From positions 1 to 64,000 of the forward strand of contig DASZWD010000060.1 in the NCBI GenBank assembly GCA_035546775.1: DNA of 64,000 nt, written 5' to 3'. The notes below the pieces were generated by a model, which was not told the DNA's origin, made no database searches, and saw only the letters and a program-made list of their open reading frames with translations. The position numbers were made by a program, and so were the translations under genes. The stretch comes from Acidimicrobiales bacterium. Its GTDB lineage: Bacteria > Actinomycetota > Acidimicrobiia > Acidimicrobiales > JACCXE01. Shown piece after piece: positions 39,033-55,339 of the stretch (within the stretch, counting starts at the first letter, position 1; each line of letters starts with the position of its first letter).

Positions 39033-39778
39033 GTGGACATTCAAAGTGGGCGACCATCAAGCACAAGAAGGGCGCGGCCGACGCGGCGCGGGCGAAGCAG
39101 TTCGCCAAGCTGCTGCGCCAGGTCGAAGTCGCGGCGCGCGAAGGCGGCGGCGACCCGACGATGAACGCGTCGCTGCGCGCCGCGATCCAAAAGGCGCGCG
39201 ACAGCTCCGTCCCCATGGACAACATCGAGCGCGCCACGAAGCGCGGCGCCGGTGAGACCGAAGGCGTGCGCTACGAGTCGGTGATGTACGAGGGGTACTC
39301 AGCCGGCGGTGTGGCCATGCTCGTCGACGCGCTCACCGACAACCGCAACCGCACCGGCGCCGAAGTGCGCTCGATCTTCTCGAAGAACGGCGGCGCCATG
39401 GCCGAGCCCGGCGCGGTGTCGTGGCAGTTCGAGCGCAAAGGCGTGATCATGGTGCCGGCCTCGGTCGGCGAGGAGCAGCTGATGGAGGTCGCCCTCGAAG
39501 CCGGCGCCGAGGACATCGCGGAGCAAGGCGACGTGTTCCAGGTCACGTGCGCGCCCGCGGATCTGTCCGCGCTGCGCACCGCGCTCGAGGAAGCCGGCAT
39601 CGCCATCGACTCGGCGGAGACGACGATGCTGCCGCAGAACTCCGTCCCGGTCACGGAAGAGAACGTGGCCAAGCAGGTCCTGCGCATGATGGACGCGCTC
39701 GAAGACAACGACGACGTCCAGAACGTCTACGCCAACTTCGACATCTCCGACGAGTTATTTACAACAGTGTTGGCGTAG
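39029..39778 (+). CDS. yebC: YebC/PmpR-family regulator with element-supplied C-terminus
   Basis: The 249-residue protein has the YebC start SGHSKWATIKHKKGAADAAR, MDNIERATKRGAG, YEGYSAGGVAMLVDALTDNR and the C-terminal QNVYANFDIS. YebC proteins act in translation (relief of stalling at proline runs) or transcription control. The last codons, from 39754 on, lie inside the integrated element: the end now reads SDELFTTVLA. The copy of the tail left beyond the element (55304-55333) reads SDELFAVLA. The gene is therefore intact after integration, with a nearly unchanged C-terminus. ruvC, its normal neighbour, is now 16 kb away. Confidence 0.95.
   Translation: MSGHSKWATIKHKKGAADAARAKQFAKLLRQVEVAAREGGGDPTMNASLRAAIQKARDSSVPMDNIERATKRGAGETEGVRYESVMYEGYSAGGVAMLVDALTDNRNRTGAEVRSIFSKNGGAMAEPGAVSWQFERKGVIMVPASVGEEQLMEVALEAGAEDIAEQGDVFQVTCAPADLSALRTALEEAGIAIDSAETTMLPQNSVPVTEENVAKQVLRMMDALEDNDDVQNVYANFDISDELFTTVLA
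39746..39753 (+). repeat. attL core of the integrative element
   Basis: The core TCCGACGA falls within the yebC codons for Ser-Asp-Glu. To its left is chromosomal yebC. To its right are 15 nt and then GTTGGC (39769-39774), the right half of the reconstructed attP. Confidence 0.88.
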
Positions 39779-39781
39779 ACG

Positions 39782-39787
39782 TACCAT
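39782..39787 (+). promoter_or_regulatory. -10 hexamer TACCAT of the integrase gene
   Basis: TACCAT ends 6 nt before ATG 39794 and lies just inside the element, so integrase expression would be driven from within the attP arm. Confidence 0.35.
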
Positions 39788-39793
39788 GGGCCA

Positions 39794-41263
39794 ATGGCCC
39801 TAGCTGTCAGAGACGGCGCCGTGGGCGCTGGTCGCGCCGCCATCTACGCCCGCATCTCCAAGGACGAAGCGGGCGACGCGCTCGGCGTGGAACGGCAAGT
39901 CAAGTTGTGCCGCGACCTCGCTCGTTCGCACGGACTCCACGTTGCCGCTGACGACGTGCTCGTTGATAACGACATGTCGGCGTACGCGAAGCGACGTCGT
40001 CCGCAGTTTGAGCGGCTCGTCGACATGCTCGACAACCGCGAGGTGGACGCCGTCGTCGTATACCACTCCGACCGGCTTTACCGGCGCACGCGAGACCTTG
40101 AGCGCCTCGTCGACGTGATCGAGGGCGGCAATACAACTGTGCACACCGTCGCCGCGGGTCTTGTAGACCTGTCAACAGCGTCCGGCCGCATGGTCGCACG
40201 CATGTTGGGCGCGGCGGCCCAACATGAGAGCGAACGAATGGGCGAACGCATCCAAGCGAAAATGGACGAACTGGCGGCGAAGGGCACACCACCCTCAGGG
40301 CCGCCGCCGTACGGGTACGCGCCAGGTTATGTGGTCGACGAATCCGAGCGCGACGTGCTGCAACTCATGGCCCGCCGCGTGCTTGAGGGCGCGTCGCTGC
40401 TGCGCGTCGCCCGCGAACTCGACGCCGCGGGCATTAAGCCGCGCAAGGCCGCCAAGTGGAACTCGACCTCGATTCGTACCGCGTTGCTGAACCCGGCGGT
40501 TATCGCGCAACGCATCCATCGGCGCGAGGTCGCGGGGCCGGGAACATGGGAGCCGGTGCTCGACCGTGACACCTACGAGAAGCTGCGCGCCGTGCTCGCC
40601 GACCCGTCGCGTAAGCACACCCGCCCCGCTCGCAAGTATCTCTTGGCGGGCCTCGTGTTCACGCCCGAGGGCGACCAAATGAACGGCCGCATGGACCGTG
40701 GCGCTGGCGACGACCCGCGGGGTAACGCGCGCAACCGACCGACCTACGCGACGCGCACCGTTCGCCCGGGCGCCGGGCGTGGCGCGCCGGGTGTTCGGCG
40801 TGGACCCGCGCAGGCGGTTGACGCGGCGAAACTTGAGACCCACGTCATCGAGGCGCTGTTCGCGGCGCTCGACGGCACCGTGCTTGCCGACGCCTCGACG
40901 ACCGACGCGTCCGTCAGTGGTGACGTGGAGCGAATCGAACGCGACCTAGCGGAACTCGCGGCCCTGCGCGGTCGCGGCGAGATCACGCTCGCCGAATGGA
41001 TGGCGGCGCGCAAGCCATTGATGGAACGGCGAGACGCGGCGCTCGCCGCGGTGGCAACGGTACGCAGTCGTCCCGCGCGCGTCGACGCGTTGTTGCGCAA
41101 CCCGAAAAAACTGCGCAAGGAGTGGTCGACGTTGCCGCTGGAGGTCCAACGCGAGGTTGTCACGGCGTTCATTGACCGCATCATCGTCGAGCGCGCAACG
41201 AACGCGCGGCACACGTCGATCGAAGATCGCGTGCCCGTCGACAACATTCGTTGGCGCGCTTAG
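39794..41263 (+). CDS. large serine integrase
   Basis: The 489-residue protein has a resolvase-type catalytic domain (about 15-160) with AIYARISKDEAGD (nucleophile Ser), VVVYHSDRLYRRTRDLE (conserved Arg) and the STASGRMVARMLGAAAQHES helix. A recombinase domain follows (about 165-290; GPPPYGYAPG, ARELDAAGIKPRKAAKW). The next region normally carries a zinc ribbon but has no Cys here. A coiled-coil stretch (about 375-420) and C-terminal VQREVVTAFIDRIIVERA complete it. It is predicted to recombine attP with attB in yebC. It is transcribed inward from the left end. Confidence 0.93.
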   Translation: MALAVRDGAVGAGRAAIYARISKDEAGDALGVERQVKLCRDLARSHGLHVAADDVLVDNDMSAYAKRRRPQFERLVDMLDNREVDAVVVYHSDRLYRRTRDLERLVDVIEGGNTTVHTVAAGLVDLSTASGRMVARMLGAAAQHESERMGERIQAKMDELAAKGTPPSGPPPYGYAPGYVVDESERDVLQLMARRVLEGASLLRVARELDAAGIKPRKAAKWNSTSIRTALLNPAVIAQRIHRREVAGPGTWEPVLDRDTYEKLRAVLADPSRKHTRPARKYLLAGLVFTPEGDQMNGRMDRGAGDDPRGNARNRPTYATRTVRPGAGRGAPGVRRGPAQAVDAAKLETHVIEALFAALDGTVLADASTTDASVSGDVERIERDLAELAALRGRGEITLAEWMAARKPLMERRDAALAAVATVRSRPARVDALLRNPKKLRKEWSTLPLEVQREVVTAFIDRIIVERATNARHTSIEDRVPVDNIRWRA

Positions 41264-41466
41264 CCGCGAAGACGATGTTGTCACCGCAGGGGCGTTGGCG
41301 TTTGACAAGTTAAAGCTTTATACGTCGAACCCATTGACGCCCCGTTAATCCTCGTGTTCGATGCCTCCAACGGCATCGCTTGGCGACCGTTGTACGCCCG
41401 GCCCAAGGTCGGTGTGACCCCGTATGCAATCCCCATTCCTGCTGACGCGCGCAAGGAAACGCGAAT
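41264..41466. other. AT-richer gap with possible promoter
   Basis: The 203 bp region after the integrase contains TTGGCG (41295-41300) and TATACG (41319-41324) with an 18-bp spacer, a plausible sigma-70-type promoter. 7-bp complementary arms (41289-41295 and 41337-41343) flank it. A 69-codon forward ORF here has no coding character. Confidence 0.3.
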
Positions 41467-41664
41467 TTGGGCAACCCAACTAAAGACGAAATCATTGGCG
41501 ACGACGGCGACCTTTCCAAGCGCGAAGTCGCGCGCTTGTGCCGCATCGCGATTAGCACCGTAGACGCGCTGATCGCGAACGGCGCCCTCGACGCGTATCG
41601 CGCCGGGCGCGTGTGGCGAGTGCGCCGTGAGAGCCTCGATGCGTTGCGGGCGGGCACGAAATGA
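41467..41664 (+). CDS. excisionase-like HTH protein
   Basis: The 65-residue protein has the MerR/Xis-type winged-helix pattern: LSKREVARLCRIAISTVDAL (helix-turn-helix), then the wing AYRAGRVWRVRRESLDALRAG. Next to a serine integrase this is a natural candidate for the recombination directionality factor, but MerR-type HTH proteins also serve as regulators. The TTG start is weak and the true start could differ. It overlaps the next small ORF by 4 bp (ATGA). Confidence 0.65.
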   Translation: MGNPTKDEIIGDDGDLSKREVARLCRIAISTVDALIANGALDAYRAGRVWRVRRESLDALRAGTK

Positions 41665-41804
41665 CCGCCGAGGAACGCAGGCGCGCCGTCATCGAATCCC
41701 GCCGCCGCCAAGGACTCCCTACCCCGCCGACTGACCGGCGCGCGCTCGTAGTTCTGGAACGCGCGTTGTCGTCGTCGCGACGAACGCAGGACGAGGTGAC
41801 TTAG
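41661..41804 (+). CDS. small basic protein, 47 residues
   Basis: The 47-codon ORF starts with ATG overlapping the previous stop and is rich in Arg (TAEERRRAVIESRRRQGLPT). It lies in a chain of overlapping genes, the main support for being coding. No family is recognised. Confidence 0.5.
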   Translation: MTAEERRRAVIESRRRQGLPTPPTDRRALVVLERALSSSRRTQDEVT

Positions 41805-41980
41805 TGGCGCGCGCGATCGAGGCCATTTCGGCGTTGCACCGGGAGTACGGCGGCGACGAGCAAGCCCTCGGCGCGTTGGCGCGCGGGTTGGTGCACGACC
41901 TCACGGGGCGTATCGCCGATGCCCTCGACGACGCGCTGCTCGACCTCGACGTGCTCGCACAACCTGAGGTCATTGCGTGA
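41804..41980 (+). CDS. small acidic helical protein, 58 residues
   Basis: The 58-codon ORF starts with a GTG overlapping the previous stop by one base and ends with a GTGA overlap into the primase gene. The sequence ARAIEAISALHREYGGDEQA and the following IADALDDALLDLDVL suggest two helices. Family unknown; it may be a replication accessory. Confidence 0.55.
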   Translation: MARAIEAISALHREYGGDEQALGALARGLVHDLTGRIADALDDALLDLDVLAQPEVIA

Positions 41981-42825
41981 CGGCCGACCGGGTTTTTGCC
42001 GACGAGGCGATCTTCCTTGCGTCGCTCGGTTGGTCGGTGTTCCCCTTGTGCTACCGCGGCAAGGCGCCGTTGACGGCGCACGGACACCGCGATGGCACCA
42101 CCGACCTCGCACTTGTGGCGCGGTGGGCGCGGAAGTATCCCCGCGCCAACATCGGTGCGCGCGTTGTCGACCATCTCGTGGTGCTGGACGTCGACCCGCG
42201 TAACGGCGGCGATGAATCGCTCGCCGCGCTCGGCACATTGCCGTCGACGTTGACGTCGGTCACCGGCGCGGGCGGGCGTCACTTGTTCTTTCGTCGCCCG
42301 CTCGGCGAGTTGATGAACGGCGCGCACAAGCTCGGGCCGGGCGTCGACGTGAAAGTCGGTGGGCGTGGCTACGTCGTGCTGCCGCCGTCGGTGCATCCGA
42401 ACGGGCAGCGCTACGAATGGATGCGCCCGCTCGCCGAAGTTGCGGCGTTGCCCGCGCATGTTGTCGAGCTGTTGCGGCCACCCGTCATTGAGGCGCGGCC
42501 GATGCGTCACCACGACGCATCGGCCGCGCCGCGGCCGGGCGACGTGTTCAACGCTACGACGTCGTGGTCGGACGTTTTGGAGCCGCACGGCTGGCGCTTT
42601 GTTGGCCAGCGCGGCGACCTTGGCTATTGGTGCCGACCGGGCAAGCGCGCCGGAGTTTCGGCGACGACCAACGCCCTTGGCACGGACCGGCTGCACGTGT
42701 TCACGTCGTCGGCGCCGCCGTTGCTGGCGGACACGAGCTACGACCGCTTCGGCGCCTTCGCTGCGTTGCACTACGGCGGCGACCTCACAGCGGCGGCGCG
42801 TGCGTTGCGGGCGGTGGTCACATGA
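41977..42825 (+). CDS. bifunctional primase-polymerase (prim-pol)
   Basis: The 282-residue protein has the N-terminal prim-pol domain (about 10-175): ASLGWSVFPLCYRGKAPLTA, VVLDVDPRNGGDES with the metal-binding DxD, TGAGGRHLFFRRP (catalytic His) and VDVKVGGRGYVVLPPSVH. The C-terminal about 90 residues include YDRFGAFAALHYGGDLTAAA, a fold often found linked to such primases. It would synthesise primers or DNA for replicating the element. It overlaps the helicase-like gene by 4 bp. Confidence 0.88.
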   Translation: MTADRVFADEAIFLASLGWSVFPLCYRGKAPLTAHGHRDGTTDLALVARWARKYPRANIGARVVDHLVVLDVDPRNGGDESLAALGTLPSTLTSVTGAGGRHLFFRRPLGELMNGAHKLGPGVDVKVGGRGYVVLPPSVHPNGQRYEWMRPLAEVAALPAHVVELLRPPVIEARPMRHHDASAAPRPGDVFNATTSWSDVLEPHGWRFVGQRGDLGYWCRPGKRAGVSATTNALGTDRLHVFTSSAPPLLADTSYDRFGAFAALHYGGDLTAAARALRAVVT

Positions 42826-44138
42826 CCCACGTCGACGTACACGACACCATCGACGCGCTTGCGGCGAGCATCGACCTTGGCGAAGCGGCCGCGGGCGGCT
42901 GGCCGACGCTCGGCGATGCGGCGCTGCACGGCATCTTTGGCGACATTGTGCGCACGTTGGAGCCGCACACCGAGGCCGACCGGGCCGCGCTGCTTGTTGA
43001 CGCGCTCGTCGAGTTCGGGAACGCCGTGGGCGCGGGACCGCACGCGGTCGCCGATGGCGCGAAACACCCGGCCCGGCTGTACGCGGTGACCGTCGGCGCC
43101 ACTTCGCGCGGCCGCAAAGGCACCGCCCACCGGCAAATCTCGCGCCTGTTCGCCGAGGCCGATCAGGTGTGGAGCAAGACGCGCGTGATGGGGGGCCTCT
43201 CCACGGGCGAGGGTCTCATCGCCGCCGTGCGCGACCCGATGAGTGAGGACGACAAGAGCGCGCCCACCGACAAGCGGTTGCTTGCCGTCGAGCCCGAGTT
43301 CGCACGAACGTTGACAGCGGCGGCGCGCGACGGCAACACGGTGTCGGCCGTGCTCCGCGACGCGTTCGACACGGGCGACATCGGCGTGATGACGAAGAAA
43401 GACCCGATGCACGCCGCTGGCGCGCACATCTCAGTCCTGGCCCACATCACCGTCGAGGAACTGCGCCGCAAGCTGAGCGACACCGAGGTTGCCAACGGCT
43501 TTGCCAACCGGTTCTTGGTCATCCTCGCGAGGCGGTCCAAGTTGTTGCCCGAGGGCGGCGCGTTGCCGCCCGCTGAGTTTGATCGCTTGGTTCGCTTAGT
43601 TCGCCGGGCGTTGGGGGAGGCGCGCAAGATCGGCACGCTGACGCGGGACGACGACGCCAAGGCGTTGTGGGCTTCGATCTATACCGACCTTGCCGAGCAG
43701 GTCGACGACGGTCTCGTCGGTGCAATCACGGCAAGAGCCGAAGCGTTGTTGTTGCGTCTGTCAGTGATTTACGCCATTGCTGACGGCACCAACCAGATCA
43801 CCACGACGCACGTGCGTGCTGCTCACGCGGTGTGGAGCTACGCCGAAGCATCGGCCCGTTTCATTTGGGGCGACGTCACGGGCGACCCGATCGCCGACAC
43901 TCTCATGACGGCCGTCACGAAGGCTGGCCCCGCCGGGCTTACCGGCAAAGAACAAAGCGCGTTGTTCAGTGGTCACAAGGACGCCAAGACTCTCGACCGC
44001 ACCCGCTCGCGCCTCATCACCGAGGGCAAGGTCATCGCGGTTTCGTCACCAACCCGCGGCCGACCGATCGACGTCATCTTCGCTCCCGCATACGCGGAAC
44101 AAGCGAACAAAGCGAAGCAAGGCGAGTGGCGCCAGTGA
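42822..44138 (+). CDS. DUF3987-like helicase/ATPase of the replication module
   Basis: The 438-residue protein follows the primase with an ATGA overlap. A nucleotide-binding-type loop GATSRGRKGTAHRQI (about residue 92) precedes MGGLSTGEGLIAAVRDP, then the SVLAHITVEELRRKLSDTEV segment and a C-terminal helical domain with a possible winged helix (GLTGKEQSALFSGHKDAKTL). This resembles the DUF3987-type proteins that pair with prim-pol in actinobacterial plasmids and islands. The Walker A is atypical (GxxxxGRKG). It is likely a helicase loader or helicase. Confidence 0.7.
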   Translation: MTHVDVHDTIDALAASIDLGEAAAGGWPTLGDAALHGIFGDIVRTLEPHTEADRAALLVDALVEFGNAVGAGPHAVADGAKHPARLYAVTVGATSRGRKGTAHRQISRLFAEADQVWSKTRVMGGLSTGEGLIAAVRDPMSEDDKSAPTDKRLLAVEPEFARTLTAAARDGNTVSAVLRDAFDTGDIGVMTKKDPMHAAGAHISVLAHITVEELRRKLSDTEVANGFANRFLVILARRSKLLPEGGALPPAEFDRLVRLVRRALGEARKIGTLTRDDDAKALWASIYTDLAEQVDDGLVGAITARAEALLLRLSVIYAIADGTNQITTTHVRAAHAVWSYAEASARFIWGDVTGDPIADTLMTAVTKAGPAGLTGKEQSALFSGHKDAKTLDRTRSRLITEGKVIAVSSPTRGRPIDVIFAPAYAEQANKAKQGEWRQ

Positions 44139-44229
44139 TCTACCCCGGCGAACAAAGCGAATCATGCGAAGTAACGCGCGGCCGCACCCCCAAGGGCTTC
44201 GCAATCCCTAGGGCCGCTGGCGCGCTCTC

Positions 44230-44258
44230 AACCCTGGCCTCGTTAGGCCTCCTGGGTT
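44230..44258 (+). terminator. hairpin upstream of the Cys-rich gene
   Basis: AACCC/GGGTT and GGCCT/AGGCC arms around a CGTT loop form an imperfect stem between the replication genes and the next cistron. It could end the replication operon or act as an RNA control element. Confidence 0.35.
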
Positions 44259-44306: not shown

Positions 44307-45026
44307 ATGCCCACCTGCGCCGGTTGCGGCGACCCGATCCCACTCTCGCGAGGCACGACGCCACGCAAGTGGTGTAGTGACGCCTGCCGGGTCGCCAAGG
44401 CCCGCAAGACGCCGCCCAAGCCGTCGCCCCCGACGGTGTCACCCCCGCCCGACGTCGCCAGCTACGAGCCGGGCGAGCGTGGCCTCGTTGACGCCGTGCG
44501 GGCGTGGCTTAGCTCGTTGCCGCCGTCGCTCGACGCCGTTGACGCCGCCGAGGCCGAACTCGTGGTCGACCTGGCGGAAATGGTCGAGGCCGGGAGCGTG
44601 CCCGCGGCCCGCGAGCTGCGGATCGCGCTCGCCGACGTGCGCAGCGCGGCCGACCCTGACGCCCGCGACCGGGTGAGCGAGGCGGCGCTCGTGCAGGCGG
44701 TGACGGCGATGGTCTCCACCGCCCCGGCGATGGGACGGGCGATGACCGACGCCGAACTCGCCGACCACATTGCGGCCGAGGCCGACTTGCCCGACGGCTG
44801 GCGCTCGACGCGGGCCGACGGGCCGTTGATTGAGTGGCTGGGGCGCCGTAGCCGCGAACTCATGGCGACCGCCGACGAGGCCGCGTTGCGTCGACTCGAC
44901 GCGTGGATAACCCGGCATGCCATTGGTCTCGCGTACGTGCGCGAGCAGGGCCGCTGGCACCACTGGAACGTGCGCGACCGCCGCGACGCGTTGCTCGACC
45001 CGAACGGCGACGATGACGCCGCTTAG
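44307..45026 (+). CDS. unknown protein with N-terminal zinc ribbon
   Basis: The 239-residue protein begins PTCAGCGDPIPLSRG, then RKWCSDACRVAKARK. Together these form a CxxC...CxxxC zinc-binding ribbon such as those in small DNA- or RNA-binding proteins. A Pro-rich linker (about 45-60) leads to an Ala-rich helical domain without recognised motifs. ATG 44307 is preferred to 44286 because CAGGAGG (44292-44298) lies between them. The end overlaps the next gene by 14 bp. Confidence 0.6.
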   Translation: MPTCAGCGDPIPLSRGTTPRKWCSDACRVAKARKTPPKPSPPTVSPPPDVASYEPGERGLVDAVRAWLSSLPPSLDAVDAAEAELVVDLAEMVEAGSVPAARELRIALADVRSAADPDARDRVSEAALVQAVTAMVSTAPAMGRAMTDAELADHIAAEADLPDGWRSTRADGPLIEWLGRRSRELMATADEAALRRLDAWITRHAIGLAYVREQGRWHHWNVRDRRDALLDPNGDDDAA

Positions 45027-45420
45027 CGAGTTGTACGCGCTGAGGCTCGATGACGGCGCACGTCGGCACTTGCGTCGCGCGCTTGATGGTCACGCCGCAT
45101 GGTGCCGATCACAGGGCGTCGCGATGCCGTCGGCACTCGCTGCTCTCGCGTTTGTGGTCAATGGCGGCCACGAGCGGCCAACGCTTGGCGCTTCGGGCGC
45201 CAACGCCGATGATTGGCTCGTGCCGATGGTGTTCACGTACGACGAGGTCGCAAGTCTGCTGCGCACGAGCGACCGCACCGTTCGGCGCCTCGTCCGGGCC
45301 GGCGACCTGCCGGTCATCAAGGTCGGCGGCCAACCGCGGGTCGCCCGCGCAGACCTTGATGACTACGTCGCCCGCCTACGCGCGCGTCGCGAGAGTGAGT
45401 TGAGCAATGGACCGGAATAA
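45013..45420 (+). CDS. HTH protein, excisionase/MerR-type C-terminal domain
   Basis: The 135-residue protein has a C-terminal Xis/MerR-like HTH (about 75-125): FTYDEVASLLRTSDRTVRRL, GDLPVIKVGGQPRVARADLD. The N-terminal 70 residues are helical and unassigned. It is the second excisionase-type HTH on the element, so one may direct integrase excision and the other regulate transcription. It overlaps both neighbours. Confidence 0.7.
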   Translation: MTPLSELYALRLDDGARRHLRRALDGHAAWCRSQGVAMPSALAALAFVVNGGHERPTLGASGANADDWLVPMVFTYDEVASLLRTSDRTVRRLVRAGDLPVIKVGGQPRVARADLDDYVARLRARRESELSNGPE

Positions 45421-46393: not shown

Positions 46394-46867
46394 GTGGCAA
46401 GTCGCCTGCGCATCGAACTCGTGCCAAGCCGCTTCGGCGCGGCAGCCTTGCCAACCGCCTTCCCCGTGCGCGTTGGAAGGCCTCCGCAAGCAGGTGCGAG
46501 CCGAGCATGGCGGCGCGTGCGACTACTGCGGCGCCACCACCACGCGCTTGTTTGCCATGAGGAGTGGGACTACGACGAGGCGCGCCGCGTCGCCACGGTG
46601 ACGGGCTTCGCGGTGGCGTGCACCGAATGCAACCTCGTCTTGCACTTTGGGCGTGCCGAAGTAAACGGGCTCGGCTTCAAGGCGAAGGCCCACCGCGCAC
46701 GCATCAACGGCGTCAATGCACCCGAGGTCGAGCGCGAGGTCGCCGAGGCGTTGTCGACGTGGAACGTGCGCTCAGGGCTTAGGTGGACCGTCGCGATCGC
46801 GCCTGCGGTCGTCGAGCGGTTCCCGTTCCTCGAGGGCGCCCTCGACGTGTCCTTGTGGACGCAGTAG
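46394..46867 (+). pseudogene. frameshifted HNH endonuclease
   Basis: Pieces of an HNH endonuclease lie in three frames. RLRIELVPS and the C-terminal part (HEEWDYDEARRVATVTGF, CTECNLVLHFGRAEVNG) are in the frame of GTG 46394. A middle piece SLANRLPRARWK is in a second frame. LRKQVRAEHGGACDYCGAT is in a third, switching near 46476 and 46554-46558. Three single-base losses restore one reading frame and the usual pattern of two CxxC pairs with HExW and HxGRA. TACCGT at 46380-46385 lies 8 nt before the GTG. Assembly error is the alternative to true decay. Confidence 0.7.
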
Positions 46868-46961: not shown

Positions 46962-47795
46962 TCATGTGGTGGTGTATCTGCGTCCCGTAATCGCCTGTTC
47001 CAAGTGCGCCCAAGTGGGCTTGACGTACTTGCCGGTTGTCGTCAGGTGGGCGTGACCGAGGATCGATTGCACGTCTCGTATGTGGGCTCCTGCGTTGAGC
47101 ATGTCGGTGGCTGCGGTCGCTCGCAGGTCGTGCGCGCGGAGGGGTAACCCGGCTCGTTGCGCGAGTTTGCTTACGCGATGCGAGACGGCTCGTGGTGTGG
47201 CTCGTCCGTCTCGGCGGCGGGCTGTGACGACGGGGCCAGAGGCGGGCTTCTCGGTGATGTTCAGCAGCTTTTGGGATTCAGTCGAGATCGGTACGTAGCG
47301 TTCGTGGCTTGCTTTGCCGCGAACGGCTGCGACGAGGGACTCGGCATCGATGTCGCGCCAATCGAGTCTCGCCACTTCGACGCAGCGCAACCCTTCTTGA
47401 ACCATGAGTGACACGATTCGCCTGTCGTCGAGGGTTTCGCATTGCTCGTACAGCGCCTTGATTTGTGCTCGTGTGCCGGGCCGCGGGACGCGCCTGGGGC
47501 GGCGTGGGCCTCGTATTGATGCGCAGGGATTCATGGCGACCAAATGGTGACGGCTGAGCCAGTCGCACCATCCGCGTATGTGGCTGAGATATCCGCACTT
47601 GGTCATGGCCGACCACGATGGGTTGCTGAGCCATGCGCGGATCGCGTGCTCGGTGACGTCGTTTGTGTCTGACTCGGCGATGTACTCGGCGAGGTGTCGC
47701 AGCGTCGCTGCCGTTGCGGTGGCGGTTGAGCCTTGGATCTCGTCGAGCGCGACCCGCTCGTTGATGTACTCGGTGATAAGTCGTTCGAGGTCCAT
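46962..47795 (-). CDS. tyrosine recombinase (complete catalytic set)
   Basis: The 277-residue XerC/D-like recombinase has a core-binding domain (about 1-95) and a catalytic domain with QEGLRCVEVARLDW (Arg I), RGKASHERYVPI (Lys), AHDLRATAATDML (His-x-x-Arg), LGHAHLTTTGKYV (His and Tyr nucleophile). All catalytic residues are present. The ATG at 47795 follows GAGGAGG, an unusually strong ribosome site here, located inside the 3' part of the upstream recombinase ORF. Hence it is co-transcribed with and translated from within that gene. Confidence 0.9.
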   Translation of the reverse strand: MDLERLITEYINERVALDEIQGSTATATAATLRHLAEYIAESDTNDVTEHAIRAWLSNPSWSAMTKCGYLSHIRGWCDWLSRHHLVAMNPCASIRGPRRPRRVPRPGTRAQIKALYEQCETLDDRRIVSLMVQEGLRCVEVARLDWRDIDAESLVAAVRGKASHERYVPISTESQKLLNITEKPASGPVVTARRRDGRATPRAVSHRVSKLAQRAGLPLRAHDLRATAATDMLNAGAHIRDVQSILGHAHLTTTGKYVKPTWAHLEQAITGRRYTTT

Positions 47796-49921
47796 GGCGC
47801 TTTTCCTCCTCGGTAGGCAACCGCGATCCGGTACGGCGTCCACACGGCAGCCTCGCCGGTCGCGGCTCTTGCTGCGTTCAGATGGCGAGAGATCCACGCG
47901 AATGGTCGATCGTCATCGTCGTGCAGTCGCACGATCTGTTCAGCTATGCGCGCCGGTACGTGGCGCGGGTTCCCGCGCCGATGTGCGTTGAGGTATCCCC
48001 GGAGCGTGTGAATATCGGAGGTGGTGAAGACGACGTTGCCGGTCGGTGTTCGGGAGCCAACAACGTTTGCTTGTCTGCGTACTGTTGCCAGCCAGCCGAT
48101 CGAGATTCCGAGTGCGAGCGCCGCCTCGCGCAACGTGAAGTACTGGCTGTCCGGCGAGCTTGGGATCGGCCAGGCCCGTGGGGCGAACTCTCGTGATCCC
48201 GCCTCTTGCCCGACCTGCAGGTGACGAAAGGTTGTCGACAACGCCTTGTGTCCGGCCGCGTCGCGGATCGCATGGACGGGGGCGCCGCTCTCGACGAAGT
48301 GGGCGATTGCCGTCGCTTGCAGTGTCTTCGCGCTTCCCGACAGTTCGGCCCGCTTGAAGGCTGAGAGCACCGTGCCTGTAATCCGTTGGCGGGACATCCG
48401 TTGACCGGATGCGCCGACAAACAGCGGGCCATTCGTCCGATCACCAGCCGCGAGATGTCTCCGCACCGCCAAGGCGACCTCGACGCTGAGTGGGATCAAT
48501 CCCGTTTCGGGATGCTTGAGCACCAGGTGATCCACATCTACGTCGCCTATGCCGAGGCGATGCATCTGCGTCGCCGTGAGCGCGTGGCACAACATCAGCA
48601 GCAGGATGAGCGTGACCGTTGGGCCACGGTTCGCTTTCAACAGCACCGCGCAATCGTCGTCGGACAGTCGTCGCGGGGCGTTCGCGACGAGACGGGGCGT
48701 CTTGAGCGCTTTTGTCGGGTCAGCGACGATCAGCCCGGCCGCCAGCAGCTCGCGGATGAAGCAACGTACCGAGATGGTGCGGACGCGAACCGTGTTGCGA
48801 GCGCACTCTCCCTGCGTCAGCCATGCGCGGACGGAGTCATAGGTCAACAGATCGGCGCTGGCTGCTAACTGTCGAAGCATGAGCGCCTGACTGGCGTACG
48901 TCACGGGAAGCCAATCTGACCGTCGTCGTTCCAGATACCACTCGACAAGTTCGGAGAGCGACGCAAGCTCGCCCGTGACTGGACCAGCGCACGCGCTTGG
49001 AGACAGCGCCCAGCGGAAGGCCCAGCGCGCCGGCGACGCGTTTTCCGGCCGGGGACGATCGCCCGAACCCGGCTGGCGGTTGACGGTGCGGACCGGATCA
49101 GTCACGAACCGGGGCAGATAGTCGTCGATAGCGCTCGGATCGTCGTGGCCCAGAAACGCGCGTAGCTGTTCCACGCTCGCACCGGATTCGGCCAAACGCG
49201 CAACAGCTTCCGCCCGTAGCGCCTTTGGCGGAGCGGACACGCCTGCCCGGTCGAGTGCCCTTCGAGCCTCCAACCAGATCTTCGTTTCATTCAGCCCTTG
49301 TGGCCAGCGTCTCTCGGACGCCACGACGAAGCCATCAGGCCGTGCGAACGGGCCGCGCGCACGCGCGACGTGGTCGTATGCGTCGCGCAGATCCAGCACT
49401 CGCTCGCGACCGGCCTTCCCACGGACAATGAACTTTCGACGCCGAAGATCCACACATGCCCACGTCAGCCGCGCAACCTCGACTCGGCGCAAGCCGCAAT
49501 ACCCCATGAGAGCCACAACCAACGCCTCGCGTGGCGAAGCCGTCGAAAGCACAAGCTCGACATCGATTCGAGCGTTGTCCAACCGGGACCTGTGTCGCGC
49601 GCTCGACGTCGGGATATCGAGGAGTCGCTCATCGGTCGGGATGACTCCCGTATCGAATAGCCACGTCACGAACCCACGAAACGAAGCTCGTCTATTTGCC
49701 TGGGTGTATGGCGTCAGGTCTGCCATCAGTTGACGCCAGTCAGCAGGGATATCGCCCAGCTCGTCGATCCGTGTCACTCCTGCGACGGTGAACAACCTGA
49801 AAAGCCGAGACCGCTCCGTCCTAGCGGTCTTCGGTTGCCAAATGTGGAGCGCCGCCCGGTCAGCGGCGTAATCGGTCGCGAGGTCCCTCAGGCGCAACGA
49901 AGGCGAGTATTGCGGCGTCAT
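47603..49921 (-). CDS. tandem tyrosine-recombinase-like protein with C-terminal HTH domains
   Basis: The 772-residue fusion has a first recombinase domain (about 1-275) keeping YCGLRRVEVARLTW (Arg145), RGKAGRERVL (Lys169), LRAEAVARL (Arg236; the His three before it is Lys), LGHDDPSAIDDY (His259, Tyr268). The second (about 320-575) has lost both Arg (CHALTATQMHRL; LQATAIAHF) and the Tyr (TTFRHL), so it is catalytically dead. An Xis-like HTH (about 595-645, FTLREAALALGISIGWLATV) and a recombinase-type helical domain (about 655-705) follow. The last about 60 codons overlap the next gene out of frame and are Ser/Thr/Arg-rich. AGGAGG precedes ATG 49921. Confidence 0.8.
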   Translation of the reverse strand: MTPQYSPSLRLRDLATDYAADRAALHIWQPKTARTERSRLFRLFTVAGVTRIDELGDIPADWRQLMADLTPYTQANRRASFRGFVTWLFDTGVIPTDERLLDIPTSSARHRSRLDNARIDVELVLSTASPREALVVALMGYCGLRRVEVARLTWACVDLRRRKFIVRGKAGRERVLDLRDAYDHVARARGPFARPDGFVVASERRWPQGLNETKIWLEARRALDRAGVSAPPKALRAEAVARLAESGASVEQLRAFLGHDDPSAIDDYLPRFVTDPVRTVNRQPGSGDRPRPENASPARWAFRWALSPSACAGPVTGELASLSELVEWYLERRRSDWLPVTYASQALMLRQLAASADLLTYDSVRAWLTQGECARNTVRVRTISVRCFIRELLAAGLIVADPTKALKTPRLVANAPRRLSDDDCAVLLKANRGPTVTLILLLMLCHALTATQMHRLGIGDVDVDHLVLKHPETGLIPLSVEVALAVRRHLAAGDRTNGPLFVGASGQRMSRQRITGTVLSAFKRAELSGSAKTLQATAIAHFVESGAPVHAIRDAAGHKALSTTFRHLQVGQEAGSREFAPRAWPIPSSPDSQYFTLREAALALGISIGWLATVRRQANVVGSRTPTGNVVFTTSDIHTLRGYLNAHRRGNPRHVPARIAEQIVRLHDDDDRPFAWISRHLNAARAATGEAAVWTPYRIAVAYRGGKAPWTSNDLSPSTSTSGSRSTRSKAQPPPQRQRRCDTSPSTSPSQTQTTSPSTRSAHGSATHRGRP

Positions 49922-49987
49922 GGCGTGACCTCCTGCGCTCGTCGACGGTACGCCGAACGAACAGAAACGCAACCGGCAAGCGGGCCG

Positions 49988-49993
49988 TAGTAT
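49988..49993 (+). promoter_or_regulatory. -10 hexamer TAGTAT of the small membrane gene
   Basis: TAGTAT ends 8 nt before GTG 50002, the leaderless pattern. It lies in the 80 bp gap divergent from the tandem recombinase gene. Confidence 0.4.
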
Positions 49994-50001
49994 CCGCGGC
50001 C

Positions 50002-50289
50002 GTGTACGACGCGCGGCGAGCAAAGACTCGTGATTTGTCAGTCGGTGTCGCCCTCGGCGCGGTTGCCGCAGCTCTGGTTACGTGGGGCCCTCACGCGACA
50101 CCATTGGTAATCGCCGCGCTCGCGCTCGTCGCGATCGTCATCGACTTAAGCCGGCGACGACGCGAACCAGATGTAGGCGTACGAGCCCAGCAAAAGCCGA
50201 GCGTGCACAGAATCCGCGAGCCTCGCTGCCATCACCAGCCGTCGGCGCCAGCGATGCGCGCTCGCAGTACGGCCTCGACACGCCACTAG
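50002..50289 (+). CDS. small membrane protein
   Basis: The 95-residue protein has a hydrophobic N-terminal half (VGVALGAVAAALVTWG; PLVIAALALVAIVIDL), i.e. two membrane segments, and a basic C-terminus. Function unknown. A TAGTAT hexamer supports the GTG start. The next membrane-protein gene begins at the base after its stop. Confidence 0.5.
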   Translation: MYDARRAKTRDLSVGVALGAVAAALVTWGPHATPLVIAALALVAIVIDLSRRRREPDVGVRAQQKPSVHRIREPRCHHQPSAPAMRARSTASTRH

Positions 50290-50730: not shown

Positions 50731-50738
50731 ACGGTTCG

Positions 50739-51041
50739 TCACGGCACACGTTCGGCAGTAGGGCGCGCGCTCGTCGCCCCAGCGCGAGGTTGATCCGAAA
50801 GCGCGGCCACTCGCGCGGTCAGGTCGTCGAGTTCGTTGCGCATCCCGTCGATCTTCTCGGCGAGGTCCGCATCGGGCCGGTCGCGGCTCGCTGGACCAGC
50901 GTCACCCACCCCCGGAGCGGAGGACACTTGTCCTACTCGCCCGCCGCCGCGTACCTTCGTCGTTGGTCCCGCCGACTTTGGTCCAGCGCATGGAAGAGAG
51001 TCGGCGGGACCGCTACGCGTTCGCCAGTGGTTCTGGTGCAT
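50739..51041 (-). CDS. possible coiled-coil protein
   Basis: The 100-codon minus-strand ORF has a C-terminal coiled-coil heptad stretch (LAEKIDGMRNELDDLTARVA) after a low-complexity start. No ribosome site or TAnnnT promoter is well placed, and forward ORFs in the same place look non-coding. The heptad pattern is the only positive support. If it is not real, 50731-51096 is an unassigned 366 bp gap. Confidence 0.35.
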   Translation of the reverse strand: MHQNHWRTRSGPADSLPCAGPKSAGPTTKVRGGGRVGQVSSAPGVGDAGPASRDRPDADLAEKIDGMRNELDDLTARVAALSDQPRAGATSARPTAERVP

Positions 51042-51096
51042 ACGCGCCCGCGCGTGAGTAGCGTTCTGTCACGGACTAGTGGGGGGAGCAATTCTC

Positions 51097-51609
51097 ATGC
51101 GCCGTCGATTGATCGTGGCTGGGTTCGTGATCGTGTTGTCGTCCTTGGGTGCCGCGGCCTTCGCTCAGACGGCCACCACGACCACCAGCACGACGACGAG
51201 CACCACCACCTCGTCGTCGACGACCAGCACGACGGTCGCGACAACGACAACGACGGGCACGCCGCCGACGACAGTCACAACTACGGCGCCCGCGACGACA
51301 ACAACAGCCGCGCCGGACGATCAGAACTGCTCCGACTTCCCGAGCCAGGCGGCAGCGCAGGCGCATCTCCGCGCCGACCCGTCAGACCCTGACCGCCTCG
51401 ATCAAGACAACGACGGCATCGCGTGCGAGTCCAACCGCGCACCGTTCGACCGCGTGCCTGTCGTGCGATCGTCACGGACCACGCCGACCGGCCAACTGCC
51501 GACTACTGGTGCCGATGCGTGGATTCTGGCCGGTGGGGCGCTCGTGCTGGTCGGTGCCGGGGCACGGATGCGCGGCCGACGCGCCGGCGGCACTCACTGG
51601 AACGCGTGA
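51097..51609 (+). CDS. Excalibur-domain surface protein with LPxTG anchor
   Basis: The 170-residue precursor has a signal peptide (RRRLIVAGFVIVLSSLGAAA, then FAQ), a Thr/Ser-rich stalk (about 25-75), and an Excalibur domain NCSDFPSQAAAQAHLRADPS followed by DQDNDGIACE, the EF-hand-like calcium motif. A sorting signal LPTTG, a membrane helix and an Arg-rich end complete it. It is cell-wall attached by sortase. GGGGGGAGC lies 9-17 nt upstream of ATG 51097. It is an unusual cargo on an integrative element and may alter the host surface or phage adsorption. Confidence 0.85.
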   Translation: MRRRLIVAGFVIVLSSLGAAAFAQTATTTTSTTTSTTTSSSTTSTTVATTTTTGTPPTTVTTTAPATTTTAAPDDQNCSDFPSQAAAQAHLRADPSDPDRLDQDNDGIACESNRAPFDRVPVVRSSRTTPTGQLPTTGADAWILAGGALVLVGAGARMRGRRAGGTHWNA

Positions 51610-51730
51610 GCCACGCGGACCCGAGTAGCGCTCTTCTTCTGCCAAAGAACACCGATGTAAGCTTGGCGTTCGTTGCGTTCGCGGAGGCGCACCACGAGAT
51701 TTGGTAACGGAGTGCTGAGGGGGGCCGTCA

Positions 51731-51952
51731 GTGGCCGACAGCGAACGCGAAGACGGATTCGCGAACATGCGCGAGATGGGCTGGGTCATCGCCCGCACCA
51801 CTAAGAAGGGCTACACGATCTTCCATTGCCCCTGTGGAGATCACTCGATCACCTTTTCGAAGACGCCCTCGAACCCCAACCATTACCGCGAACGGGTCAA
51901 TCACGCCTCAGTGATCTGTTGCCATGGTGACGCCACCGAAGCCACCGATTAG
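51731..51952 (+). CDS. small CPCG-motif protein, HicA-like pattern
   Basis: The 73-residue protein has GWVIARTTKKGYTIFHCPCG, then HSITFSKTPSNPNHYRERV and ICC near the end. Four Cys and a His could bind zinc. The fold pattern (GW..R..KKGY..F.C) recalls HicA mRNA-interferase-like small proteins widespread in actinobacteria, but the catalytic His of HicA is not clearly placed. GAGGGGGG precedes the GTG start. It lies 138 bp upstream of a gene whose homologues I recall as frequent neighbours. Confidence 0.6.
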   Translation: MADSEREDGFANMREMGWVIARTTKKGYTIFHCPCGDHSITFSKTPSNPNHYRERVNHASVICCHGDATEATD

Positions 51953-52090
51953 ATCGGTAATGAATTGCCGCCGAAGGACCCTATTCCGACCCCAGGTGGC
52001 ACTCCCGATGGTAGACATGGCTCTACAACAGGTAATACTTAGTTGCACAGGACAACACACCTTGGGGCAAGCGGAACAGGAAAGGTGGTG

Positions 52091-52468
52091 ATGGGCATGG
52101 CGAAATCCAATGAGTTAGAGCTGCGCGTCATGTTCAAGGTCCAGGCCTCCTGCCCTAACGCCACCCCGGATGAATTTCGTCAGGGTCTCGAAGAGCAGCT
52201 GGGCGACGTCATGGAAGAGTTGCTGCAAGACGAGCGAGTCGTCGACCCGATCATCGGTACTGAGTACTCAACCGGCACGGTCACGTTTGAGTTGATCGTT
52301 GCTGGCAGCGACGAAGCCGAGATTGTCCGTATCACTAGCGGCGCGATCCGCGCCGCCATTCACGGCGCGGGTGGGGCGACGCCTGGCTGGTCGCTTGCCG
52401 ACGGGAACGAAGGCAAGGCGCCGATTTACACCCGTATCGGATTCGAAGCGGACTTCGTCGACGCCTAA
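52091..52468 (+). CDS. conserved unknown protein, partner of the CPCG gene
   Basis: The 125-residue protein is an alternating strand/helix protein with VMFKVQASCPNATPDEFRQG and TSGAIRAAIHGAGGATPGW, the latter a phrase I recall from an uncharacterised actinobacterial family found beside HicA-like genes. There are no catalytic residues I can name. GAAAGGTGG precedes ATG 52091; ATG 52097 is in frame. TAGACA and TAATAC (52012-52038) upstream suggest its own promoter. Confidence 0.6.
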   Translation: MGMAKSNELELRVMFKVQASCPNATPDEFRQGLEEQLGDVMEELLQDERVVDPIIGTEYSTGTVTFELIVAGSDEAEIVRITSGAIRAAIHGAGGATPGWSLADGNEGKAPIYTRIGFEADFVDA

Positions 52469-52632
52469 ACGCAAACTGCCAGCACGACAAGGGTCACCAG
52501 TCGCGCGGCGACCCCCACATTCGCGAACGCGCACTTGCCGAACAAGCAACCGCGGTCAGGATTCTGCGTGCGTGAATTTGACGACCATGTTCAGCCCGTC
52601 TTAGCCAACTTGCTCTCGTTGCGGCGCATGCT

Positions 52633-52971
52633 TTAACCGCGCGCTGCGTGCGCGGTCATACCGACGCCGAGTTCGTACTCGCCCGACAGCTCAAGGAAGG
52701 CGGCGGCGTACGCGGCCTGGAGCACTTCCTCGGGGCTCGGTGGACGAGACCGATAGACCGACACCTCCGACACAAGCGCCAACAGCTCCAGACTCGAACT
52801 ACTCAGTGCCGGATTCCCGATGTTCGCGTGCAGCGTCACGTCCATGACTCGTCTGTCGGCTGTCGGGCGAATCTCGCCGGTCAGCCAAACGGCGTCGCCC
52901 GCCTCAACCATGCGGCGCAACTCGTCCCCGGAACTTCGTGATCCGAGAGCGCCTGTGATGGCCGGGATCAA
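52633..52971 (-). CDS. unknown protein, 112 residues
   Basis: The minus-strand ORF has VEAGDAVWLTGEIRPTADRR, then VMDVTLHANIGNPALSS and a C-terminal helix EEVLQAAYAAAFLELSGEYE. It overlaps the upstream gene by 68 bp and starts with TTG, so its start is uncertain. Family unknown. Confidence 0.45.
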   Translation of the reverse strand: MIPAITGALGSRSSGDELRRMVEAGDAVWLTGEIRPTADRRVMDVTLHANIGNPALSSSSLELLALVSEVSVYRSRPPSPEEVLQAAYAAAFLELSGEYELGVGMTAHAARG

Positions 52972-53581
52972 TGAAGAGTCTCGCTGTTTCGTCTAGTCCC
53001 ATCCGCCGGTACGACAACACCCGTAGTTCGATGTCCCACTCGCTCGGCATTGGCCATGTGCCTGGTTCATCCCACGCGCTCGGCCCGCCCTCGACTTGCA
53101 GTTTTCGCAATCGGCGCTGGTGCTCGGACCGGTCGCGAAGTAGCTCCACTTCATTCGAACTGATGGCGTCCGCCGCCTGTCGACGCCGCGCAGCAAGCAT
53201 GTTGAGATATGTCTCCCAGGGATCGGGAGGAAGCGCAGAAGCGTCGGCGGTCGTCCATGCTGCCTTCGATTCGCCGCTCGGCCTCGGCGCCGGAGGGGCG
53301 TCGGACGATCGACGCGCCACGACGGGCGCCATGGGCTGCGACGGGCCTGGAGGGAGTTCGACGACACTTACAGCGCGCCAAAGCCTGCGAACTCCCAGGA
53401 ACAGCCCGCTAGCAATGCCGGCGTACACGATGACGCACGCGAGGATGAACGTGACAACAAGCTGTCCGCCCATCATCCAGAGCGCCGCCAGAATCCCCCC
53501 GCCGCAAATGAGTGTCACGGGCAGGCAACCGCGCAGTGGCGACTCGTCCTTGTCGACCACGTGATCGACCCTAGGCACCAC
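52904..53581 (-). CDS. membrane protein of unknown function
   Basis: The 225-residue protein has two N-terminal membrane segments (VTLICGGGILAALWMMGGQL; VTFILACVIVYAGIASGLFL), a Pro/Ser-rich linker (about 80-115) and a charged helical domain (RRQAADAISSNEVELLRDRS). The C-terminus contains RRMGLDETARLFIDPGHHRR. Not recognised. GTG start at 53581. The 164 bp downstream of the following gene, back to 52469, has nothing I can support. Confidence 0.5.
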   Translation of the reverse strand: MVPRVDHVVDKDESPLRGCLPVTLICGGGILAALWMMGGQLVVTFILACVIVYAGIASGLFLGVRRLWRAVSVVELPPGPSQPMAPVVARRSSDAPPAPRPSGESKAAWTTADASALPPDPWETYLNMLAARRRQAADAISSNEVELLRDRSEHQRRLRKLQVEGGPSAWDEPGTWPMPSEWDIELRVLSYRRMGLDETARLFIDPGHHRRSRITKFRGRVAPHG

Positions 53582-53765
53582 GATCCGCTAAGACAACTCA
53601 TACACCGCTCTCGTGACACAACACGCCGAGAAACATTGAGGGACAGCGCGAGCTAGCACGAGACAAAAGCGCAGGTCAAGGCGAAGGTTTCGAACGTTCC
53701 CGCTGGTCACGAAACCCGCCGACTCAGAATCCCGCTTACAGGCCGACTCAAATTCACAACGTCAC

Positions 53766-53771
53766 TACCGT
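53766..53771 (+). promoter_or_regulatory. -10 hexamer TACCGT
   Basis: TACCGT ends 6 nt before ATG 53778 and supports the forward gene over the antisense ORF in the same place. Confidence 0.35.
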
Positions 53772-53777
53772 TGGACG

Positions 53778-54125
53778 ATGGCTTCCTGCCCGGAACTCTG
53801 GGAGCAACTCTCCGCCGCAGAGAATCGTCGCGACAGGAGCGGGCATCGCGGCTTTCTCGCCGAGGACGTCGTCGTCCACGTCCAGGGTGGCGCGGAGTTG
53901 GGCGGCGTCGACGCCTACTGCTTGATGATCGACGGGTTCTGCGGGTTGTCGCCCGACTACAGCGCCGACGTTGAGCGCCGCCTCGACGCGCTCGTCGCCG
54001 AACTCGACGAGCTGGTCGCCGACTCTGATCGCCTCGCCCGTCACCTGGGCGTCAAGCGGGCGCCGTCGGGTGCGGCGCCCGCGTGCGCCTCGGCGATAAC
54101 GAACGCCGCGACACCACCGCCGTAA
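53778..54125 (+). CDS. small unknown protein
   Basis: The 115-residue forward ORF has an acidic middle and a helical VERRLDALVAELDELVADSD stretch. The 196 bp upstream of it, back to 53582, contains no other gene candidate. Family unknown. Confidence 0.45.
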   Translation: MASCPELWEQLSAAENRRDRSGHRGFLAEDVVVHVQGGAELGGVDAYCLMIDGFCGLSPDYSADVERRLDALVAELDELVADSDRLARHLGVKRAPSGAAPACASAITNAATPPP

Positions 54126-54128
54126 CGT
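54123..54128 (+). promoter_or_regulatory. -10 hexamer TAACGT
   Basis: TAACGT includes the stop codon of the previous gene and ends 7 nt before ATG 54136. Confidence 0.35.
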
Positions 54129-54135
54129 GGCGCGC

Positions 54136-54483
54136 ATGAAGCGCGTCGTAGCCGCGTGGCGCATCACCCTGGCGACGGTCGCCGTCGGCGCGCTGGCGGC
54201 GTTCGTCATCGACTACCACGCCGACCACGAGCACGACATCAAATGTCGCCGATATGCCAACGCGCTTACCTTGACGCTCGACGCCACGACTCCCGACGAG
54301 GCGGCGTTGCGCAAGCTCACCGACGCCGACCGCAAGGCGGTACTTCGCGACCGCAAGCTGCACGCCGACGCGTTGGCGCAGCTTGAGCCGAGCGACGACG
54401 AGGGCATCGCCGCCGAGAACAAAAATTGGGACACGTTCCGCCGCACCGATCGGGCGCAACTGCTCGCCGCTCGCGGCTGCTGA
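54136..54483 (+). CDS. small membrane-anchored protein
   Basis: The 115-residue protein begins KRVVAAWRITLATVAVGALA with one membrane helix, then an acidic/basic soluble part (TDADRKAVLRDRKLHADALA). ATG 54136 is preferred to the GTG at 54127 because of the TAACGT hexamer. Unknown function. Confidence 0.5.
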   Translation: MKRVVAAWRITLATVAVGALAAFVIDYHADHEHDIKCRRYANALTLTLDATTPDEAALRKLTDADRKAVLRDRKLHADALAQLEPSDDEGIAAENKNWDTFRRTDRAQLLAARGC

Positions 54484-54488
54484 GCCGT

Positions 54489-55274
54489 TTAGAGGAACTT
54501 CGACAGCGGCGCGATGACTTTGTCGCGAAGGTTGCTCGCTATTGCGTTCACGACGGTCGCAACGTGCTTGCCGTTGAGTACGCCGCCGACGAAGTCGACG
54601 TCGGCGTCGATTTCGATCGCAACACGGTCGTAGGTCTTTCCAGCAATCGTGAGTTCGCAGCCCGAGTATCTGCCGACCTCGATCGCGCCGTCGTCATCGA
54701 CGGGCTGAGACTGCATGGCCAACACACCGATGGTCATCGAGTCGAAGAACCGCGAGGCGCCGATCCCAAAACCGGATTGGTGTCCCGTAGCGGTGAACCC
54801 AAGATGATGCTTGTCGTCGTTGTTTAGCTCGCGAAGGTTGGCAAGCCACTCGTTCGCTTCTGGGTCTGCCGTTGGTTGCAGGTTCTCAATGATCGTGCGG
54901 GCGCCTTTCGGAACGCACCCGATGCACGCGTTGAAATCTGCGGGTGTCGGCGGCTGTTTCGTGGCTATCGGAAACTGGCTCGTCTTGCGCGCTTTCTCAT
55001 CGAACGCGGCACCCGCAGTCTCGCCGAGCGCGTACGCGATGTTGTCGAGGGACGCCCGCGCTGCGTGGGCGAACTCGCTAATCGCTGGCTCCAATCCATC
55101 GGGTTGTCCCGGCAACCACACCCGAATGACACGGACGCCCGTCGCGCCATCCTTTTCGTGGCGAACGACCTTGTGCTTTACCCACTCGTCGCACATGGCG
55201 CCAATTTGCTTGGCGCGCTTGTCGGCTTGTGCCAGCTTCTCGGCGAACCCGTAGGCCACGCAGCGAAGGTACAC
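54489..55274 (-). CDS. conserved unknown protein next to attR
   Basis: The 261-residue soluble protein has FAHAARASLDNIAYALGETA, SQFPIATKQPPTPADFN, ARTIIENLQPTAD and LRELNNDDKHHLGFTA. These phrases (ASLDN..Y.L, QFPI, LQP, L..LN..DKH) recur in a widespread uncharacterised family that I recall from many bacteria and mobile elements. No function is established. It is the last gene of the element, reading away from the attR core 30 bp upstream of its GTG. Confidence 0.65.
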   Translation of the reverse strand: MYLRCVAYGFAEKLAQADKRAKQIGAMCDEWVKHKVVRHEKDGATGVRVIRVWLPGQPDGLEPAISEFAHAARASLDNIAYALGETAGAAFDEKARKTSQFPIATKQPPTPADFNACIGCVPKGARTIIENLQPTADPEANEWLANLRELNNDDKHHLGFTATGHQSGFGIGASRFFDSMTIGVLAMQSQPVDDDGAIEVGRYSGCELTIAGKTYDRVAIEIDADVDFVGGVLNGKHVATVVNAIASNLRDKVIAPLSKFL

Positions 55275-55282
55275 GTCATTAT

Positions 55283-55303
55283 GCCAACGTCATCGTGAAT
55301 AGA
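55283..55303 (+). other. left half of attP retained at attR
   Basis: GCCAAC (55283-55288) is followed by exactly 15 nt before the core. On the other side of the element, 15 nt separate the core from GTTGGC. The two arms are therefore symmetric about TCCGACGA in the circular form. Confidence 0.75.
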
Positions 55304-55311
55304 TCCGACGA
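55304..55311 (+). repeat. attR core of the integrative element
   Basis: This is the second copy of TCCGACGA, identical to attL. To its right is the chromosomal tail of yebC, and to its left the element. Confidence 0.88.
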
Positions 55312-55333: not shown

Positions 55334-55339
55334 CGCGCG

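Follow-up and report, generated by a model that had tools for sequence, protein, structure and literature searches.

In a 64,000-nt stretch of the genome of an Acidimicrobiales bacterium (hereafter the window, part of contig 60 of a 3.7-Mb assembly that is 97.5% complete), a 15,558-bp element with a replication module interrupts the 3' end of yebC, where its own large serine integrase appears to have placed it. We propose that an approximately 50-bp symmetric attP recombined with an attB within the VYANFDISDE codons, that strands were exchanged inside the core TCCGACGA, probably at its central GA, and that the right arm of attP then furnished an in-frame substitute ending for the gene (ELFAVLA-stop becoming ELFTTVLA-stop), which would leave YebC at full length. 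The integrase would read yebC through a re-shaped C-terminal ribbon devoid of zinc ligands, a loss that seems to mark a small integrase clade of which two of the three members found stand at yebC. Read from sequence, the case is made by the ends of the element, an empty site in a congener, occupation of the same target in another order, the exchange of the YebC tail and the grouping of ligand loss in one clade, and we hold the explanation as a whole, from insertion by the element's own integrase through tail exchange to zinc-less ribbon clade, with good confidence. That an element with exact ends and a symmetric attP interrupts yebC had been put forward in an original prediction for this DNA; its observation is confirmed and its interpretation supported here, and the replacement tail and the missing zinc ligands go beyond it. 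The boundary work is ordinary; what stands out is a clade of integrases without zinc ligands, together with an attP that restores yebC.

Ends of the element and the empty site

The following sequences, all on the plus strand, define the ends and the interrupted locus:

39746-39753, plus: core TCCGACGA at attL, read in the sequence
55304-55311, plus: core TCCGACGA at attR, read in the sequence
55283-55303, plus: P arm of attP, with GCCAAC at 55283-55288
39754-39778, plus: P' arm of attP, with GTTGGC at 39769-39774; forms the new yebC tail with stop codon TAG at 39776-39778, and has a homologous arm in genome G551 (see below)
39029-39778, plus: yebC as it stands (Pfam PF01709/PF20772), codons 1-241 from the host, then element-supplied ELFTTVLA and stop
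55312-55333, plus: displaced native yebC 3' end, comprising the last base of a Glu codon, then LFAVLA and stop; the same end occurs in the congener G001
55337-55390, plus: native hairpin 3' of yebC (-43.2 kcal/mol over 55320-55400, z -7.5), a probable terminator separated from yebC by the insertion
55345-55917, plus: bcp open reading frame (ORF) of the right flank, named in the original prediction, with a homolog after yebC in G001

The core is present at both ends, as had been predicted. The word itself is unremarkable, the window containing 8 copies where 7.2 are expected, and some 8-mer was common to two random 100-bp stretches in 34% of 2,000 draws; the 8-bp core by itself is at chance level, and the boundaries rest on other tests. 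Joining the ends yields GCCAAC, 15 nt, the core, 15 nt and GTTGGC, so that the symmetric site with 6-bp inverted arms and a weaker inner repeat is as described, within an excised circle predicted from the ends to measure 15,558 bp. The half-sites of this attP agree at 15 of 25 positions, compared with a mean of 7.9 in 200,000 random joins (P = 0.002), and the arrangement GCCAAC-15-core occurs once in the window and in none of 100 shuffles. From the symmetry of attP, the crossover dinucleotide is likely GA at 39749-39750. The integrase begins 40 nt past the attL core (ATG at 39794), as was claimed, and the further claim that the site is of a size typical for large serine integrases accords with the 25-bp half-sites given in the excerpted text of PMC3783163. 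Neither the circular-form attP pattern nor the conserved P' pattern found a match in viral contigs; one viral contig (L200) that contains 20 nt of the P' arm probably does so by chance, with no integrase or yebC match within its 3.8 kb.

The empty site had been expected to be a yebC ending SDELFAVLA-stop in a relative with an uninterrupted locus. The predicted junction translates in this way, and in the one same-genus genome compared (G001) yebC is uninterrupted, 79% identical, and ends in NFDISDDLFAVLA followed by a stop (DISDDLFAVLA-stop), with 40 of 42 bases matching the predicted junction and a bcp homolog (80%) approximately 1 kb downstream. Because the end of yebC in G001 equals the predicted junction and bcp lies downstream, we take 55312-55333 to be the native end of the gene. 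The hairpins that follow yebC in the two congeners (55337-55390 in the window and approximately 1980-2030 in L013, the latter judged by eye) seem unrelated in sequence.

No such integrase was found near the 29 other yebC loci read in the order, drawn from 190 genomes with a match (27 of 30 loci had at least 1 kb downstream), nor at 118 yebC loci among the matches listed in public genomes, 95 of which had at least 1 kb downstream and some fewer than 100 nt. Conversely, no yebC match was found at 34 loci of other integrase relatives, three of which had only about 60-210 nt upstream. In the literature, searched mostly outside subscription papers, we found no link of yebC to a serine integrase or to attB with an integrase; for yebC as a prophage integration site, a single Mycoplasma paper was listed.

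A second occupied yebC

A search of 345 genomes of the class for related integrases identified a second case in another order (G551), where a related integrase stands directly after yebC, at the same point of the gene. Identity between the two integrases is 66% for residues 15-171 and 45% for residues 172-480, and the stretch from core to ATG, that is P' arm plus spacer, is identical in 31 of 44 aligned columns. The G551 arm is likewise in frame, giving the tail EILATMSA with a stop at the same place. In that genome yebC and ruvC are 14.9 kb apart, and a tblastn search of 19 other element ORFs against 19.5 kb of sequence containing the yebC-ruvC interval returned nothing better than an E value of 0.016, so that apart from the integrase the two insertions have little in common.

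A substitute ending for yebC

In the integrated state, the reading frame of yebC passes through the core into the P' arm and ends at the stop codon of the arm (39776-39778), such that native DELFAVLA-stop becomes DELFTTVLA-stop; most residues agree across the exchange, and most codons differ. None of 1,000,000 random tails reached agreement at 6 of 7 residues, in a test that ignores the fact that part of the arm doubles as a binding motif. Among the matches listed, the nearest of 118 short tails to the element tail is that of the congener, with a score of 18 compared with 13 for the next. Since GTTGGCGTAG of the P' arm is also a likely integrase-binding motif, constraints on the tail and on binding are entangled. 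YebC would presumably keep its function with the new tail, and the element would be capable of excision.

Phage 21 and e14 at icd, and the staphylococcal cassette chromosome (SCC) at rlmH, are elements that rebuild the gene they enter. The present element resembles gene-rebuilding elements in its insertion near the 3' end and in supplying the lost gene end; it differs from them in that they carry a long identical repeat, whereas here 8 bp are common and the tail is spelled largely in other codons. Such gene restoration is the subject of a general statement in the excerpted text of PMC12884075.

Half-site anatomy

Two further features, both on the plus strand, concern attL:

39723-39753, plus: attB left half-site and core (host part of attL), encoding the motif V-Y-A-N-F-D-I-S-D
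39723-39736 and 39769-39782, plus: perfect 14-bp inverted repeat of attL, one arm from the host and the other from the element (RNA fold z -4.1 and -4.6)

The motif GTTGGC lies 20-25 nt from the dyad in both halves of attP and 14-19 nt from it in the left half of attB, an inward offset of 6 bp in one attB half-site. In the excerpted text of PMC3783163, the motif for the zinc domain is further out in attP than in attB for the published large serine integrases, and for the LI integrase it is placed at 16-24 in attP and 5 bp closer in attB. The window contains, adjoining the integrase gene, a symmetric attP of roughly 50 bp, and also an attB that has an inward-shifted motif in its left half and is weak in its right half. 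Among the matches listed, AACTTCGACATCTCCGACGA lies inside yebC in 118 of 120 loci (the other two are not yebC), and a 29-nt exact match to the left half-site occurs in 17 of the 120, across several phyla. Integrase, attP and attB form a precisely predicted set, with a conserved yebC coding motif as the left half-site.

The P' arm and the left half of attB share 14-bp identity, the 14 nt GTTGGCGTAGACGT of the former being the reverse complement of the latter; random 60-nt pairs attained this in about 1 of 10,000 draws. The resulting attL repeat ends 11 nt upstream of the integrase ATG and can form an RNA hairpin only when the element is integrated. This hairpin may be regulatory, as its stem is energetically strong, yet it overlaps translated codons and only its inner part is kept in G551 (CTACGC/GCGTAG, by eye).

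An integrase without zinc ligands

The enzyme at the left end is encoded as follows:

39794-41263, plus: large serine integrase of 489 aa with catalytic Ser22 (PF00239, E 3.7e-28; PF07508, E 1.1e-9; no PF13408; phrog_95)

A resolvase domain with the catalytic serine is followed by a Recombinase domain. Ser22 aligns with Ser10 of Bxb1 (chain 9iu2_A), the residue named as catalytic in the excerpted text of PMC12884075, and of 36 positions nearly invariant across 23 homologs the protein keeps 30, with R20, S22, D93, R94 and R97 among them. None of the four zinc ligands is present: three ligand columns hold N, M and T, the fourth holds G, and the sole cysteine in 489 aa is C39. Among 30 other aligned homologs, by comparison, the ligand cysteine occurs in 29 at column 1, in all 30 at columns 2 and 3, and in 25 at column 4. 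PF13408 matches 23 of 24 rows of the alignment, the window integrase being the sole non-match. A compensated frameshift hiding the cysteines was rejected, as no CxxC appears in the three forward frames of the 300 bases over the ribbon.

Two relatives share this condition. CxxC is found in 10 of 11 further full-length homologs, the exception being an intact integrase in G542 (L206), which is not at yebC and has no PF13408 match. The G551 copy is also without ligands (GDPMTGRPDRG...CYATRS); a lone cysteine there falls three residues ahead of ligand position 3. This gives three zinc-less integrases among 43 homologs examined, a count that omits four matches of the 345-genome search and further weaker matches; another homolog, L006, lacks only the ligand of column 1. 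The tree comprised 42 rows, leaving out L006 and representing G551 by a fragment of 191 residues; in it the three zinc-less members group as a single clade (100/98), within which the integrases of the window and G551 are sisters (100/99). The underlying alignment left out 6 of 37 extracted integrase ORFs that were cut or short. The three members come from three families. No confirmed relative of the integrase emerged from viral contigs, whether searched with the integrase alone or together with alignment A2, and all protein matches in phages and plasmids were below 60% identity, the best among the matches listed being about 30-39%. We found no earlier report of zinc-less serine integrases in a search that covered mostly open papers, where PMC3783163 alone came up for the ribbon cysteines of large serine recombinases; earlier ones may exist.

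In the order of catalytic domain, recombinase domain, ribbon and coiled coil, in its catalytic residues, in having a symmetric attP, about 50 bp long, adjacent to its gene and in the motif shift between attP and attB, the window integrase is like Bxb1, phiC31 and A118/LI. It departs from them in having neither zinc ligands nor PF13408, in a shift of 6 rather than 5 bp, and in its target, yebC. Because the four-ligand zinc ribbon is absent, we file it as a variant clade and not as an ordinary large serine integrase.

 

The best structural match of the window model is a serine integrase complex (9dxh, residues 9-489, Z 19.3), and all five top matches are serine integrases (Z 16.8-19.3); the model aligns over nearly its whole length with Bxb1 and phiC31, and in its C-terminal part with the LI integrase complex 4kis. 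In this AlphaFold model, which leans on zinc-bearing homologs in its alignment, the ribbon strands, the embedded coiled coil and the C-terminal hairpin are present, with helices at 371-393 and 399-424. In the model of the G542 integrase, the ribbon strands (275-311) fall in blocks with a predicted local distance difference test (pLDDT) score of 81-92. As zinc is reported to be required for phiC31 integrase activity (the excerpted PMC3783163, citing McEwan 2011), either the DNA-binding domain of the clade works independently of zinc or the lineage is inactive, and we lean towards the former: the ribbon probably still binds DNA without zinc, and the window integrase is presumably active. If true, a natural zinc-free clade would show how the ribbon can be rebuilt.

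Alternative explanations

Several observations weigh against the account proposed here. The G551 integrase is broken (its frame changes around residue 171, and it contains an in-frame stop codon), no attR was recognised in that genome, and yebC and the N-terminal part of the integrase are both approximately 66% identical between the window and G551. The attP/attB offset is 6 bp rather than the 5 bp of LI, and there is no clear GTTGGC match in the right half of attB. The window model derives from 24 sequences, with a predicted template modelling score (pTM) of 0.52 and pLDDT below 50 in ribbon loops 301-312 and 323-336, and the zinc requirement of phiC31 integrase and the blindness of the random-tail test to binding, both noted above, belong here too. 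The most radical alternative, that an accidental 8-bp repeat and accidental symmetry conceal true ends elsewhere, can draw on the chance expectation for the core, but we give it next to no credence: the congener's empty site, the unique GCCAAC-15-core, the symmetry of attP, the common half-site motif and the occupied site in G551 all concur, and a chance repeat is rejected on their account. Improbable, though less extremely so, is a single ancient insertion that predates the split of the two orders, persisted by descent in the window genome and G551, and disappeared elsewhere. The like identities of yebC and the integrase N-terminal part would fit such a history, but the same-genus G001 is empty, no such integrase stands near the 29 other yebC loci of the order or at the 118 in public genomes, and 19 other element ORFs gave no match better than the E value of 0.016 noted above in the G551 interval.

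The remaining two alternatives deserve more weight. The tail match could be a by-product, the P' arm being set by integrase binding and YebC restored by luck and not by selection; we regard this as a sizeable minority possibility, given that GTGTTGGCGTAG reads VLA-stop in the yebC frame, that DNA recognition alone could set the 14 nt complementary to the attB-left arm, and that the random-tail test takes no account of binding. Nevertheless, the L-F codons lie in the arm but outside the GTTGGCGTAGACGT motif, and the G551 arm differs in letters while keeping length, frame and stop. The zinc-less clade could also be a decaying lineage, its ligands lost, the integrase dead and the element a fossil fixed in yebC. 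The zinc requirement of phiC31 integrase given in the excerpted PMC3783163, the broken G551 copy and the poorly predicted ribbon loops of the window model all speak for decay, which we nonetheless judge a minority possibility, as two of the three members have intact reading frames, the window protein retains most near-invariant positions, the G542 ribbon strands are predicted well, and the members, from three families, form one clade with two at the same target. Use of the same target by two members would imply working enzymes after ligand loss, unless one insertion was inherited. To the fuller proposal we give slightly less than even odds: the clade would work with a zinc-free ribbon and a 6-bp in place of a 5-bp offset, and those members that target yebC would bring along in attP a spare ending for the gene, allowing entry into a widely conserved coding motif with the gene left unbroken.

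Other genes of the element

The remaining features within the element are:

41467-41664, plus: HTH_17 protein of 65 aa (PF12728), a candidate directionality factor
41977-42825, plus: bifunctional DNA primase/polymerase, Prim-Pol (PF09250)
42822-44138, plus: helicase/primase-like replication protein (phrog_5311, E 4.6e-12, and others; no Pfam match)
45025-45420, plus: HTH_17 protein (PF12728)
46394-46867, plus: HNH endonuclease-like protein (phrog_5200, E 5.8e-15; no Pfam match)
46962-50023, minus: tyrosine recombinases (PF00589), as an ORF at 46962-47834 and a longer ORF at 47999-50023 with two phage-integrase stretches (scanned)
51079-51609: Excalibur-domain protein (PF05901) that includes a Thr-rich segment and has an LPxTG-like end
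54489-55274, minus: right-end ORF of 261 aa without a family match, oriented away from attP in the circular form

Among the part of the element ORFs scanned there was no capsid, terminase or portal gene, and no relaxase or FtsK/TraB translocase, and we would class the whole as an integrative element that carries a replication module. Of 298 genomes searched, 8 others encode homologs of the replication protein at 42822-44138 (E <= 1e-10), and the right-end ORF has one weak relative in the same number (G018, E 1.4e-5). In two Prim-Pol/helicase loci of the same order (G041 and G061; L201 and L202) the helicase is 49% and 45% identical, and in G041 a primase/polymerase (34%) stands beside it, as in the element. 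Tyrosine integrases lie near both loci, unlike the serine integrase of the element, so integration modules have apparently been exchanged. The tyrosine recombinases of the element match XerC/D-type NCBIfam models, all under the curated cut-offs. Their three stretches in tandem across two ORFs recall recombinase-in-trio elements; such an origin was rejected, there being no convincing flanking inverted repeats.

Serine integrases were also encountered elsewhere. A second one in the same genome (contig 54, L205, 8435-9817, minus) is 34-36% identical to that of the element, has its zinc ligands, and adjoins an open frame similar by eye to an FtsK/EccC-type ATPase, a gene that it may interrupt. Contig 22 of G058 contains five serine-integrase matches within 25 kb (156414-181199).

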